Of a stretch of DNA of 64,000 bases, positions 41,921-47,353 are shown piece by piece. A program made the translations under genes and the position numbers. The stretch's first letter is position 1; each line of letters starts with the position of its first letter. Origin of the DNA: Candidatus Cryptobacteroides gallistercoris. GTDB lineage: Bacteria > Bacteroidota > Bacteroidia > Bacteroidales > UBA932. The notes under the pieces are model-generated. The model worked only from the letters and a program-made list of their open reading frames with translations. It had not been told where the DNA came from and made no database searches. Location: NCBI GenBank assembly GCA_017694835.1, contig JADIMJ010000047.1, forward strand, positions 1 through 64,000, written 5' to 3'.

Positions 41921-44038
41921 TCATTTCAGGCTTATTCTGACAGTTTCTCCCCTGGCCTTGTGTGTCCCGGCTGCGGGGGTCTGGCTTACCACATGCCCGG
42001 TCCCGGTGTATGAGCAGCTGTAGCCGCAGTTTTCTATTGACCATATCGCATCCGTCAGCCCGAGTCCCATGACATCCGGGATTTCCTCCAGGTTGTCTGC
42101 CCCGGACACGACATTCCTGCCTGTCATTTCAGGTATATCTCCGTCAGCCGCCAGTTCCCGGCCCCATGTCGGGGACAGGGCATATACTTCGTCCACGATT
42201 TCCCTGAATGTGGCGGCCGGCAATGTCCCTCCGTACAAATCTTTTCTTGACAGCTTGGAGTATATTGTCACTATGGCGCTGTATTGCGGGTCATCTGCGG
42301 GGAAGAATCCGACGAATGTGCCCTGATGTTTCCTGTTTCCGTTATTGTCCTTGTACACGGTGATGAGCTTGCCGTTGATTTCCGCCGGGAACGGAATCTG
42401 TGCGGTCCCGGTCTTGCCGGCGACCTTGCATCTGGCATCCCTGAGTGCCTTGCCTGTCCCTTCTTTAACCACCAGGCTGAGGGCCTTGATGAGGGTGTCG
42501 GCGGTCTCTGTCGAGCAGATGGCCCCGTTGAGTATTTCCGGGCCGTATTCCGTGACGGTCTTTCCGTCCTTTTCCGTGCACTCGACAATATATGGCTTCA
42601 TCATCTTGCCCTTGTTGGCTATCGCATTGTAGAACATGAGGACATGCAGCGGGGTCTCAAGCACGCTGTATCCTATTGCTATAGACGGAAGGGCCGTCCC
42701 GCTCCATCTGTATGAACCGGGCATGGGAATCACAGGCTGCGCCAGCCCGGCAAGGTCAAAGTCAAACTTCTCGTTCAGTTTGTATTCATACAGTTTCCCG
42801 ATGAATCTTTTTTCTGATTCAGGGCTTCCTCCGTAATTTTCGCAGGCAAGGTATCTGAACACATGGTTTGATGAAATCTTAAGGCCGTCGGCAACCGAGA
42901 TGTATTCTCCCCTGTTCTGAAGGTAGGGGTCTCTCGGCAGCTTCTCTCCTTTCCATTCCCAGAAGCCGCGGAATGTCGGGACTTCCGTGTCCAGGGTGAC
43001 TTTCCCGTCCTCAAGGAGCGTCATGAGCGTGGTGAGCTTGAACACCGAGCCCGGGTCGCCGGCTCTCCCGATTGCATAATTGAAAGTTTCCCCGAAATTT
43101 CCATTGCCGTCACTGCGGAGATTGACCATGGCGCGGATTGCTCCCGTCTTGACGTCCATCACGACTGCACAGCCCCCCTCAATGATTTCCTTGCCGGCCA
43201 TGTTTTTCCTGAGGGCGCGGTCGGCTATGTCCTGTATGACAATGTCTACGGTAGTCCTTATGTCAAGCCCGTTCTCCGCCATGACTGAAGTGCTGTCGAA
43301 GTCCGGTATTCTTTTCCTCTTGTCGGTCAGCTTCATCCATTCGACGCCCTCTTCCCCTTTCAGGGCATAGTTGAATGAGCCTTCGATTCCGATTCTGCTC
43401 CGTCCCTCTGTCCTGTCGTCGTCGATATAGCCAAGGACTCTTCTCGCAAGCGACTCGTAAGGGTATTTCCTTTTGTCGTATCTTACTGTGATGATGCCTC
43501 CTTTGTACCGTCCTTCGTCAAAAAGGGGGAAGGTCTGGATTTCCCTGAATTTCCGGTGGTCAATCTCGTAGCCTATCCTGACATACTTTTTCCCGTTTCT
43601 TCTGCCGCTGATTATTGTATTGTAGTATTCATCCGCGGTCTTGTCCCCGTATGCTTCGGCGAGCTTTTCCGAAAGCAGCCTTGCTTTCCCGAGCCACTCC
43701 TCCTCATCTTTTCTTCCCTTCTCCCTGTCCTTGTCATTTTCATGCTCGTCCTTCAGGACGGTGCAGTCCATGTATATCTGGTATGTCGGTATTGTCGATG
43801 CGAGAAGCTTTCCGTCATAGGACAGGATCGACCCTCTCACGGGTTCGATTGTCTCCCTGATGCTCTGCGGCGTCAGCTTTTCCTCCAGTATAGGGGCCGG
43901 CCGGAAAATGAATTGTATATAAAGGAGGCGGAATATGAGGACAATGGAGAGAACAAGGCACACGAAATATATCCCGAACAGAAATTTTCCTGTCCTGTCA
44001 TTCTTTTGTATGTCCGTATTGTCTGTCCTGTCTGCCAT
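41921..44038 (-). CDS. ftsI: Penicillin-binding protein (FtsI/PBP3-type transpeptidase) with PASTA domain
   Basis: Septal class B PBP, 705 residues. Cytoplasmic tail and one helix (LFGIYFVCLVLSIVLIFRLLY), a PBP dimerisation domain (about 60-270), then the transpeptidase: catalytic serine in SVFK (331-334), SSN motif in ISSNHVFR, and KTGTAQ. A C-terminal PASTA-like domain (EIPDVMGLGLTDAIWSIENCGYSCSYTGTGHVVSQTPAAGTHKARGETVRISL) follows. Placed between ftsL and murE as usual. Confidence 0.95.
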   Translation of the reverse strand: MADRTDNTDIQKNDRTGKFLFGIYFVCLVLSIVLIFRLLYIQFIFRPAPILEEKLTPQSIRETIEPVRGSILSYDGKLLASTIPTYQIYMDCTVLKDEHENDKDREKGRKDEEEWLGKARLLSEKLAEAYGDKTADEYYNTIISGRRNGKKYVRIGYEIDHRKFREIQTFPLFDEGRYKGGIITVRYDKRKYPYESLARRVLGYIDDDRTEGRSRIGIEGSFNYALKGEEGVEWMKLTDKRKRIPDFDSTSVMAENGLDIRTTVDIVIQDIADRALRKNMAGKEIIEGGCAVVMDVKTGAIRAMVNLRSDGNGNFGETFNYAIGRAGDPGSVFKLTTLMTLLEDGKVTLDTEVPTFRGFWEWKGEKLPRDPYLQNRGEYISVADGLKISSNHVFRYLACENYGGSPESEKRFIGKLYEYKLNEKFDFDLAGLAQPVIPMPGSYRWSGTALPSIAIGYSVLETPLHVLMFYNAIANKGKMMKPYIVECTEKDGKTVTEYGPEILNGAICSTETADTLIKALSLVVKEGTGKALRDARCKVAGKTGTAQIPFPAEINGKLITVYKDNNGNRKHQGTFVGFFPADDPQYSAIVTIYSKLSRKDLYGGTLPAATFREIVDEVYALSPTWGRELAADGDIPEMTGRNVVSGADNLEEIPDVMGLGLTDAIWSIENCGYSCSYTGTGHVVSQTPAAGTHKARGETVRISLK

Positions 44039-44049
44039 ATCCTGTCATT

Positions 44050-44472
44050 CTATTCTGTTGTGCGCCGTCCGGTAAGTCTGTCGGCCGGCTTGTCGGGGAC
44101 AGTCAGGAAAGAGCCTGACCGTATCAGCATGTCCTGCACCGCACTGAGCTTGCCGAGCTCCGCCAGTTCGCTGGTTTTCTGCCTGAGGTATATCCTGTAG
44201 TCTTCCGCGGCCTGTCTGGAGACTTCCAGCCTGACCATCGTCTGCTCTATGTGAAGTTTCATCCAGATGCAGACCACTGCAAGGAAAAACAGATATATGA
44301 TATGGATGAAATATCTGTCGAATTTCATCCTCAGCAGGAATTTCCCCTGGAATATGGCCCCGATGCTGTCCTTTATGAATGCCAGTACGGCATGCATCCG
44401 GGACCGCCTTTTCCCTTCGCCTGCGGTGTTGCCGGCTGCCGGGATTTCCTGTATGTCTCTTCCTGTCTCCAT
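44050..44472 (-). CDS. ftsL: FtsL-like division protein
   Basis: 140 residues with a basic N-terminus, one membrane helix (YFIHIIYLFFLAVVCIWMKL) and a following coiled coil (EVSRQAAEDYRIYLRQKTSELAELGKL), the plan of FtsL. Sequence is little conserved, so the name rests on topology and on its place between rsmH and ftsI. One base separates its start from the rsmH stop. Confidence 0.82.
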   Translation of the reverse strand: METGRDIQEIPAAGNTAGEGKRRSRMHAVLAFIKDSIGAIFQGKFLLRMKFDRYFIHIIYLFFLAVVCIWMKLHIEQTMVRLEVSRQAAEDYRIYLRQKTSELAELGKLSAVQDMLIRSGSFLTVPDKPADRLTGRRTTE

Positions 44473-44473
44473 G

Positions 44474-45418
44474 TCATTCGTCCTCCCTGCCTGGTCTTCC
44501 GGATGCGTCCGGTCCGGTTTTCTCTGCTATTCTGAGTTTTGCGCTCCTGGCCCGCGTATTTCTGCCAATCTCCTCTTCCTCAGGGACAATCGGCTTGCGG
44601 TTGACTGCCGTAAGCGGTGTCGTGGCGTGCCCGTAGAGATCCCTGCTGTCTTTCCCGTCCACATTCCCGCAACGGATGAAGTTCTTTACCATCCTGTCCT
44701 CAAGGGAATGGTAGGTGATGACGGCAAGCCGCCCTCCATGGCGGAGGGATGCCGCCGCGCCCTGCAGGAATTTTTCAAGGGACCGCATTTCCCCGTTGAC
44801 CTCTATCCTCAGGGCCTGGTAGATTTTTGCCAGGGCCTTGTGTCTGGCGGCAGGAGGCAGGGCTCCGGCAATTGCGTTCTCAAGTTCTGATGTCGTGGTG
44901 ACCGGAGACGACTCCCTGGCCTTGCATATCAGCCTTGCTATCCTTCCGCTGTTGTCGACCTCCCCGTACATCCTGAATATTTTTTCAAGTTCCTCCATTG
45001 TCCTGCCGTTGATGATGTCCGCGGCAGTCGTCCCGGAGCCTGTGTCCATCCTCATGTCCAGTCCGGCGTCATATCTGAAGGAGAACCCTCTTTCCGGAGT
45101 GTCAAACTGGTGGGAGGATACTCCGAGGTCGGCGATGATTCCGTCGATTCCTTCGGAATATCCGAGTTCTATAAGAAAGTTGTGGATAAACCGGAAGTTG
45201 TTGTGTATCAGAGTCAGCCTGCAGTCGTCCGGCCTGTTCGCAAGAGCCTCGCTGTCTCTGTCGAATGCTATCAGCCGGCCTTCCGGCCCCAGCCTTGAAA
45301 GGATTTCACGGGAATGGCCTCCTCCTCCGAAAGTGGCGTCAGCGTAGACACCGGACGGATTCAGGACAAGGGCGGAAACGCTCTCTTCAAGCAATACGGG
45401 AATATGATATTCGGACAT
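44474..45418 (-). CDS. rsmH: 16S rRNA (cytosine(1402)-N4)-methyltransferase
   Basis: Methylates N4 of C1402 in 16S rRNA. 314 residues with HIPVLLEESVSAL, the SAM loop ADATFGGGGHSREIL, IIADLGVSSHQFDTPERGFSFRYDAGLDMRMD and the ITYHSLEDRMVKNF motif. The usual second gene of the dcw cluster. Confidence 0.97.
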   Translation of the reverse strand: MSEYHIPVLLEESVSALVLNPSGVYADATFGGGGHSREILSRLGPEGRLIAFDRDSEALANRPDDCRLTLIHNNFRFIHNFLIELGYSEGIDGIIADLGVSSHQFDTPERGFSFRYDAGLDMRMDTGSGTTAADIINGRTMEELEKIFRMYGEVDNSGRIARLICKARESSPVTTTSELENAIAGALPPAARHKALAKIYQALRIEVNGEMRSLEKFLQGAAASLRHGGRLAVITYHSLEDRMVKNFIRCGNVDGKDSRDLYGHATTPLTAVNRKPIVPEEEEIGRNTRARSAKLRIAEKTGPDASGRPGREDE

Positions 45419-45433
45419 TTCACACCTCCGGCA

Positions 45434-45880
45434 TTACAGGTTGGACACTTTTTCTGCCAGAGAAACAAATTCCTCTTCAGGAATGGCGGAGGACTCGTAT
45501 TTCTCCCTTGCCCAAAGCTCTATCTTATGGTCGTTCCCGGCAAAGATTACTTCTTTTTCAGCTCCTATGGCGTCAAGGAGCTTCTTGGGGATGGAAATTC
45601 GCCCGAGCTTGTTGTCCGGAGTCACCACGGTGTTTCCGCGCATGAATTCTCTCCAGAAGGAGGCATGCTCCTTCTTCAGGAAATTCAGCCTGGACTTGAT
45701 CTGTTCCGAGCGTTTTTCCCATTCTGAGAATGTGAGCATCTCAAGACAGTCGTCGAAAATGTCTTTTCTGACCACAAAGCGCATGTCATCGGCAGGCAGC
45801 AGACTCTTGAAGGCAGAGGGCAGGATTATCCTTCCCTTGTCATCAATTTTTGCCGAGTATTCTCCGATGAAATTCACCAT
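45434..45880 (-). CDS. mraZ: Transcriptional regulator MraZ
   Basis: 148 residues with two tandem AbrB/SpoVT-type swapped-hairpin repeats, DKGRIILPSAFKSLL (near 15) and NKLGRISIPKKLLDAIGAEKEVIFAG (near 90). MraZ forms a ring and binds spaced direct repeats upstream of its own gene, repressing the dcw cluster in the species studied. Here four 10-bp-spaced repeats lie immediately upstream of its promoter box. First gene of the cluster. Confidence 0.95.
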   Translation of the reverse strand: MVNFIGEYSAKIDDKGRIILPSAFKSLLPADDMRFVVRKDIFDDCLEMLTFSEWEKRSEQIKSRLNFLKKEHASFWREFMRGNTVVTPDNKLGRISIPKKLLDAIGAEKEVIFAGNDHKIELWAREKYESSAIPEEEFVSLAEKVSNL

Positions 45881-45905: not shown

Positions 45906-45913
45906 CAAAAGTA
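45906..45913 (-). promoter_or_regulatory. -7 promoter element of the dcw cluster
   Basis: TACTTTTG on the minus strand, an exact TANNTTTG match, giving a leader of about 20 nt before mraZ. No TTTG at -33; that region is occupied by the GTGGAAAA repeats. Confidence 0.65.
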
Positions 45914-45920
45914 CGAATTA

Positions 45921-45960
45921 TTTTCCACTTTCCTCCAATATTTTCCACTTTTTTCCACAA
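45921..45960 (-). promoter_or_regulatory. Putative MraZ operator: four 10-bp direct repeats
   Basis: Read on the minus strand, four consecutive decamers are TTGTGGAAAA, AAGTGGAAAA, TATTGGAGGA and AAGTGGAAAA. Known MraZ boxes are short TGGGN-type direct repeats with a 10-bp period. The period, number and position upstream of mraZ fit; the GTGGAAAA core is a lineage variant. The array spans -20 to -60 of the dcw promoter and also lies upstream of the divergent M23 gene promoter. Confidence 0.65.
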
Positions 45961-45974
45961 AGTGCCTGCCCGGG

Positions 45975-46006
45975 CTTGCCGGACTATATTTTTCATGCTA
46001 ACTTTG
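45975..46006 (+). promoter_or_regulatory. Promoter of the M23 peptidase gene
   Basis: CTTG at 45975-45978, 20 bases, TAACTTTG at 45999-46006. The start codon at 46073 is about 60 nt downstream of the predicted transcript start. Confidence 0.6.
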
Positions 46007-46072: not shown

Positions 46073-47353
46073 ATGTGCAGATATGTTAAAGCCGGGCTTG
46101 TCCTGCTGTGTGCCGCCATGCTTTTGTGCGGGTGCGGAAGAGACGGGGGGCAGCTTCAGGCGGGGGACGATGCCGCCTTGCCGTCCGTCGCCGCCGATTC
46201 GTCATATCTCGGATTCGATGTTTCAGAATACGGATGCCGGGAAGAAGTCGTGCGTTCAGGGGAATTCTTCTCCACAATACTTGTGAAGGCGGGAATGTCG
46301 GCGGGTGATGCCTATGCCCTTTCGGAAGAATGCGGGGAAGTCTTTGACGTGAGGACATTGAGGAAAGGCAACCCTTATCAGGTCTATTATGCCTGCGGCC
46401 CTGATTCTCTTGCGTCGTCTTCTCCTTCGTATCTGGTCTATTGGCAGGACCGCATCAACGGTTATGTCTTTGCGTGTTCGGCTCCCTTCGGGGCCCGGAA
46501 GGTGTCCAGACCTGTGTCCGTGGAGCGGAAATTTGCCGACGTGACCATTTCGGCTTCCCTCTGGAACGACATGCTGGATGCAGGGGTGTCCCCTCTGCTG
46601 ATTCTGTCCCTGTCGGACATATATGCCTGGACGGTGGACTTCTTCGGGCTGCAGAAAGGAGACCGTTTCAGAGTGTATTACGATGAAAAAATCTGTGACG
46701 GGCAGACTGTTTCCGTCGATACCATAAGGTATGCGGTGTTCACTCACGGCGGAGAGGACTTCCCTGCTGTGATGTTCAACCAGGGCGACGGAGGCAACAT
46801 ATACTGGAATGAAAAGGGGGAGAGCATGAGGAAGGCCTTCCTGAAGGCGCCGCTGCACTATTCAAGAATCAGTTCAGGGTTTTCTTATGCCCGGAGACAT
46901 CCGATAACAAGGCGGGTCCAGCCTCATACAGGCGTCGACTATGCCGCTCCAAGGGGGACTCCGGTGGTGTCCATAGGCGACGGTACGGTGACGAGCTGCC
47001 GCTATGAGGGGGCAGGCGGCAATGTGGTGCGCATAAGGCATAATTCCGTGTATTCCACGGCATATCTGCATCTTTCAAAATACGGTCCCGGAATACGGGC
47101 CGGAAAAAGGGTGAAGCAGGGTGATGTCATAGGGTATGTCGGCTCTACCGGCCGGAGTACCGGGCCTCATCTGGATTTCCGGGTGTGGAAGAACGGCTCC
47201 CCTGTCAATCCGCTGAAGATGGAGTCTCCTCCTGCCGAGCCTCTCGCCGAACATAACAGGGCTGCCTTCGGGGCTGTATGCCGGCAATACGGTGACCTGC
47301 TGGCGGCCCGCGAGGCTGTTCCTGTCGCAGAGTCCATCCTGAAGAACCTGTAG
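46073..47353 (+). CDS. M23 (LytM) peptidoglycan endopeptidase lipoprotein
   Basis: A 426-residue lipoprotein (hydrophobic signal ending LLCGC; Cys19 or Cys21) acting on the cell wall. An N-terminal half resembling the MepM/NlpD accessory region (FFSTILVKAGMSAGDAYALSE, a LysM-like opioid-growth-type fold) precedes the M23 domain: RRVQPHTGVDYAAPRGTPV (H..D zinc ligands), ISSGFSYARRHP and GPHLDFRVW (HxD/H motif). Divergent from mraZ, so wall hydrolysis and division share an upstream region. The last 40 residues are a tail. Confidence 0.9.
   Translation: MCRYVKAGLVLLCAAMLLCGCGRDGGQLQAGDDAALPSVAADSSYLGFDVSEYGCREEVVRSGEFFSTILVKAGMSAGDAYALSEECGEVFDVRTLRKGNPYQVYYACGPDSLASSSPSYLVYWQDRINGYVFACSAPFGARKVSRPVSVERKFADVTISASLWNDMLDAGVSPLLILSLSDIYAWTVDFFGLQKGDRFRVYYDEKICDGQTVSVDTIRYAVFTHGGEDFPAVMFNQGDGGNIYWNEKGESMRKAFLKAPLHYSRISSGFSYARRHPITRRVQPHTGVDYAAPRGTPVVSIGDGTVTSCRYEGAGGNVVRIRHNSVYSTAYLHLSKYGPGIRAGKRVKQGDVIGYVGSTGRSTGPHLDFRVWKNGSPVNPLKMESPPAEPLAEHNRAAFGAVCRQYGDLLAAREAVPVAESILKNL

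Follow-up and report, generated by a model that had tools for sequence, protein, structure and literature searches.

The MraZ operator of Escherichia coli, said to have been described by Eraso et al. in 2014, reportedly has a TGGG core. In Mollicutes the MraZ box is (AAAGTGKN3)3 (Fisunov et al. 2016, quoted in PMC5282649, PMC8475190). MraZ of Burkholderia cenocepacia binds a fragment in which 3-nt spacers separate four 7-nt GTG repeats, a site that was reached through a GTG motif reportedly common to B. subtilis, E. coli and mycoplasmas (PMC7761207). In Mycoplasma genitalium the sole MraZ motif is at mraZ, and loss of mraZ raises the mRNA of rsmH, MG_223 and ftsZ 4-8 fold (PMC8475190). Overexpression of MraZ in Mycoplasma gallisepticum is accompanied by raised FtsZ (PMC8475190), indicating that regulation need not have the same sign in every species. 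A search of the full-text literature, with most subscription journals outside it, yielded no account of a Bacteroidota MraZ site, and no binding, footprint or expression data were found for any Bacteroidota MraZ.

The window, the whole stretch of 64,000 nt that was analysed, contains a comparable array in the promoter region of mraZ. Four decamers in the AAAGTGGNNN register follow one another on the minus strand with an exact 10-bp period, directly upstream of the mraZ promoter (Table 1). An earlier note on this DNA had described four decamers in perfect register just upstream of the mraZ promoter box, one of them degenerate. That description holds on the minus strand, where decamer 3 is the degenerate repeat; the site it gave (45921-45960) is the right one, displaced by a single base.

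Table 1. Positions of the decamer array, promoter elements and genes in the window
Feature	Position	Strand	Description
Decamer array	45961-45922	-	four decamers; 41 nt ahead of the mraZ ATG
Decamer 1, TTTGTGGAAA	45952-45961	-	outermost putative MraZ repeat, on the M23 side
Decamer 2, AAAGTGGAAA	45942-45951	-	exact AAAGTGKN3
Decamer 3, ATATTGGAGG	45932-45941	-	degenerate; TGG kept, GTGGAAAA lost; core TTGG
Decamer 4, AAAGTGGAAA	45922-45931	-	exact AAAGTGKN3; overlaps -33 of the mraZ promoter
mraZ -7 box, TACTTTTG	45906-45913	-	Bacteroidota TAnnTTTG type; 8 nt past the array
mraZ	45434-45880	-	148 aa; two MraZ domains (PF02381, 1.7e-19); first dcw gene; ATG at 45880
rsmH/mraW	44474-45418	-	PF01795
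FtsL-like gene	44050-44472	-	PF19579
FtsI-type transpeptidase with PASTA	41921-44038	-	PF00905/PF03717/PF03793
M23-side -7 box, TAACTTTG	45999-46006	+	perfect TAnnTTTG; 44 nt from the array edge (CCAC at 45955)
M23 peptidase	46073-47353	+	PF01551 (2.4e-32), PF19425 (4.2e-8); lipoprotein-like N-terminus

The core of decamer 1 is GTGG, and all four decamers read TGGA. Two decamers are exact copies of the published Mollicutes AAAGTGKN3, so that GTGGAAAA is not the variant core it had been taken for. TGGG, which the earlier note regarded as the core of established operators, occurs in none of the four decamers; it is the form of one species and does not define the family, the part named as common being GTG (PMC7761207). 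The identification as an MraZ box was nevertheless correct. Given the AAAGTG[G/T] or GTG core, the 10-bp repeats and the cognate two-domain MraZ, the array is, as judged from its sequence, an ordinary MraZ binding site, and GTGGAAAA is not a new core.

The MraZ protein encoded next to the array matches the solved MraZ structures 1n0e and 9qlr. Both DNA-binding loops are kept (DDKGR at residues 13-17 and GR at 93-94), and K15, R17 and R94 of these loops are invariant in a 17-member sample of the order. The genes behind mraZ include a dcw FtsI-type transpeptidase with a PASTA domain at its C-terminus.

The array is conserved across the Bacteroidales. Upstream regions of mraZ were taken from two genome samples, one at genus and one at order level, and from a named collection; the genomes are mostly metagenome bins, and the close relatives were picked for their resemblance to the window. 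At least three TGG cores at a period of 10 are present in 81% of 164 distinct Bacteroidales upstreams, compared to 0.24% in shuffles, and four such cores in 39%, compared to none in shuffles. In the same test, periods of 8, 9, 11 and 12 gave 0-0.6%. About a fifth of the upstreams fall short of three strict TGG cores, TGT standing in many of them instead. Decamer 1 is the best-conserved decamer in 124 close relatives (GTGG at 96/98/100/95%), while the order-wide decamer, from 40 loci, is AAAGTGG(T/G/A)AAA. What stays constant is TGG with its exact 10-bp spacing; the flanks vary to GTGGT or GTGGG across the order. The repeats, whose absence from close relatives the earlier note had named as a result that would speak against it, are thus present upstream of mraZ in both close and distant Bacteroidales.

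Within the genome the array stands alone. The four-decamer pattern GTGGAAANNNGTGGAAANNNNTGGANNNNNGTGGAAA has one match in the window with up to three mismatches and none in 100 dinucleotide shuffles, and the chance expectation for a two-decamer pattern is 0.02. The strict patterns have no match other than the mraZ array in the 2.02-Mb assembly, which is 89% complete. A loose three-core pattern gave three overlapping matches at the array and eight two-mismatch matches elsewhere; the latter look like chance, and no further MraZ operator was found in the assembly beyond them.

Bacteroidota promoters follow a -7/-33 model, and the place of the array within this promoter is fixed. The fourth core lies 15 nt from TAnnTTTG in 109 loci and 16 nt in 12, together 121 of 124 close relatives, and the array consequently lies across the mraZ -33 region. 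Decamer 3 was also considered as the -33 box itself, which is not claimed, its TTG being several nt too far from the -7 box. The array is very probably an MraZ operator through which mraZ and the downstream dcw genes are autorepressed. We infer that an MraZ oligomer, a ring in other bacteria, would bind at one face of the DNA, on which the four TGG cores lie in phase. Since decamer 4 overlies the -33 region, bound MraZ would be expected to block RNA polymerase at the mraZ promoter, and in this way MraZ may repress its own operon together with the dcw genes that follow, namely rsmH, the ftsL-like gene, ftsI and onward. An order-wide operator at a fixed place in a TAnnTTTG promoter predicts autorepression by blocking of the -33 region.

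The gene divergent from mraZ encodes an M23 peptidase with Csd3_N2 (PF19425) and Peptidase_M23 (PF01551) domains, both over the gathering cut-offs. Its NCBIfam scores are 239.7 of 700 for ShyC, 185.2 of 341 for MepM and 172 of 700 for ShyA, all under the equivalog cut-offs. By these scores the product appears nearest to the MepM/ShyA/ShyC-like DD-endopeptidases, as a relative and not a filed equivalog. The earlier note proposed that MraZ could couple wall hydrolysis to division from a position shared by the two promoters. Part of this idea stands: where the M23 gene is divergent from mraZ, the spacing between the array and the M23 promoter looks constrained. On the other side, M23 adjoins mraZ in only part of the family, and no array accompanies relocated M23 genes.

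In this lineage, we suggest tentatively, the divergent gene for the MepM-like endopeptidase may be under the influence of this operator as well, given that its promoter stands at a fixed distance from the operator, apparently in helical phase with it. Across the wider clade, 48 distinct loci have the divergent arrangement, and in 39 of these the M23 gene has a recognisable -7 box. In 14 loci that box is separated from the array edge by 43-44 nt, even though their 5' UTRs are anywhere from 27 to 89 nt long, which suggests that the operator may also act on the M23 gene in this lineage. In 13 of the 43-44-nt loci, compared nucleotide by nucleotide, the stretch from the array to -33 has diverged to about 40% identity, versus 26% in shuffles. 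The other spacings up to 60 nt are 11-15, 24-25, 32-34, 47 and 54-55 nt; in the 8 loci with a spacing of 11-15 nt, the array and the M23 -33 region necessarily overlap. In a post hoc test, devised after the data were seen and with a 44-nt class that comes mostly from one clade, 16 quasi-independent spacings of up to 60 nt clustered at 10.5 bp (R=0.76, p<1e-4). The clustering was R=0.49 (p=0.006) when five long spacings were added, and it was not significant (p=0.10) with one value per merged distance class, both again post hoc. In control loci, -7 boxes facing neighbours other than M23 were not phased (R=0.24, p=0.35).

That the array is kept for joint control of the dcw genes and the endopeptidase would extend autorepression by MraZ, not oppose it, and we give it somewhat less than an even chance. 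The spacing and its phasing in M23 loci only are in its favor. However, M23 adjoins mraZ in only part of the genus (divergent in 13 of 57 genus loci of the first sample) and in none of the order-wide loci, whereas the array is nearly always at mraZ, with or without an adjoining M23 gene. No array was found at 36 relocated M23 orthologues, and the M23 gene was rejected on these grounds as a conserved trans member of the regulon; a three-core match at one relocated orthologue (L225) proved spurious and is not an array. The gain or loss of decamers could also produce 10-bp steps without selection. A two-way switch, with MraZ controlling both the dcw genes and a phased promoter of a MepM-like DD-endopeptidase, is conceivable in part of the Cryptobacteroides clade, with a probability of roughly one in three. 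If it exists, wall-opening activity would be tied to division-gene expression; co-regulation of the endopeptidase would give MraZ a direct target in wall growth beyond the dcw cluster.

Alternatively, the fixed distance from the array to the M23 gene could be due to a factor other than MraZ, acting through a DnaA-box-like TTATCAACA/TGTTGAWAA or through an upstream promoter element of the M23 gene. A DnaA-box-like element is found in relatives at a fixed place directly before decamer 1, on either strand (e.g. L074, L010 and L045); it ranges from -13 to -3 of the first MraZ core in the mraZ upstreams L003-L181. TGTTGAWAA at -13 of the first core is far above the controls, with 22 exact matches and 51 with at most one mismatch among 121 loci of close Cryptobacteroides relatives, whereas control offsets give 0 and 0.25. 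Order-wide loci, from other families, have TTATNAACA, most commonly at -11; 28 of 40 contain it in the last 200 nt, against an expected 0.9. Despite these numbers another factor is less likely than not to be the cause of the spacing, since the window, which has no such element at 45962-45971, and most loci with the 44-nt spacing are without it. The element has counterparts elsewhere in relatives: the paired 9-mers TTTTCAACA/TTATCAACA, or close variants, 12 bp apart, are found where an apt-like gene begins, ahead of rpsL and next to ybeY/mnmG (L335 and L338 around 1500; L336 and L337 at 1500-1521). The genes are presumably those named, as judged by reading their translations. The pairs at these loci suggest a common growth- or replication-linked factor.

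The T before GTGG in decamer 1 is kept in 80% of relatives, while the last decamer favours A. With this T, decamer 1 also reads as a relaxed DnaA box, TTTTCCACA. It is highly improbable that the repeats are a cluster of DnaA boxes (TTWTNCACA) and not MraZ sites. The plus strand of decamer 1 does fit the relaxed DnaA consensus, and the adjoining element in relatives is DnaA-box-like as well, but decamer 1 is the only one to fit where a cluster calls for several TTWTNCACA 9-mers. Moreover, TGG at exactly 10 bp is invariant while its flanks change across the order, and the array is tied to mraZ and single in the genome. That the array is a chance A-rich or low-complexity repeat without function can be dismissed almost entirely, for although the region is A/T-rich, the shuffles, the conserved register and the conserved promoter spacing rule it out.

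As a putative MraZ operator, the array resembles the Mollicutes box in its 10-bp direct repeats, its AAAGTGG core and its location upstream of mraZ. The Mollicutes box has three decamers, whereas the array has four, one degenerate, upstream of a TAnnTTTG promoter. The B. cenocepacia site is also similar, with four repeats of 7 nt and 3-nt spacers, a GTG core and a place at the dcw promoter. Unlike the array, which is upstream of the -7 box and covers -33, that site follows the -10 box and overlaps with the start site. The E. coli operator likewise consists of 10-bp direct repeats that control the first dcw promoter; it differs in having TGGG, as opposed to TGGA after GTG, and in its position relative to the promoter. 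In M. genitalium, finally, the only copy of the motif is at mraZ, the same single-target logic as seen here.
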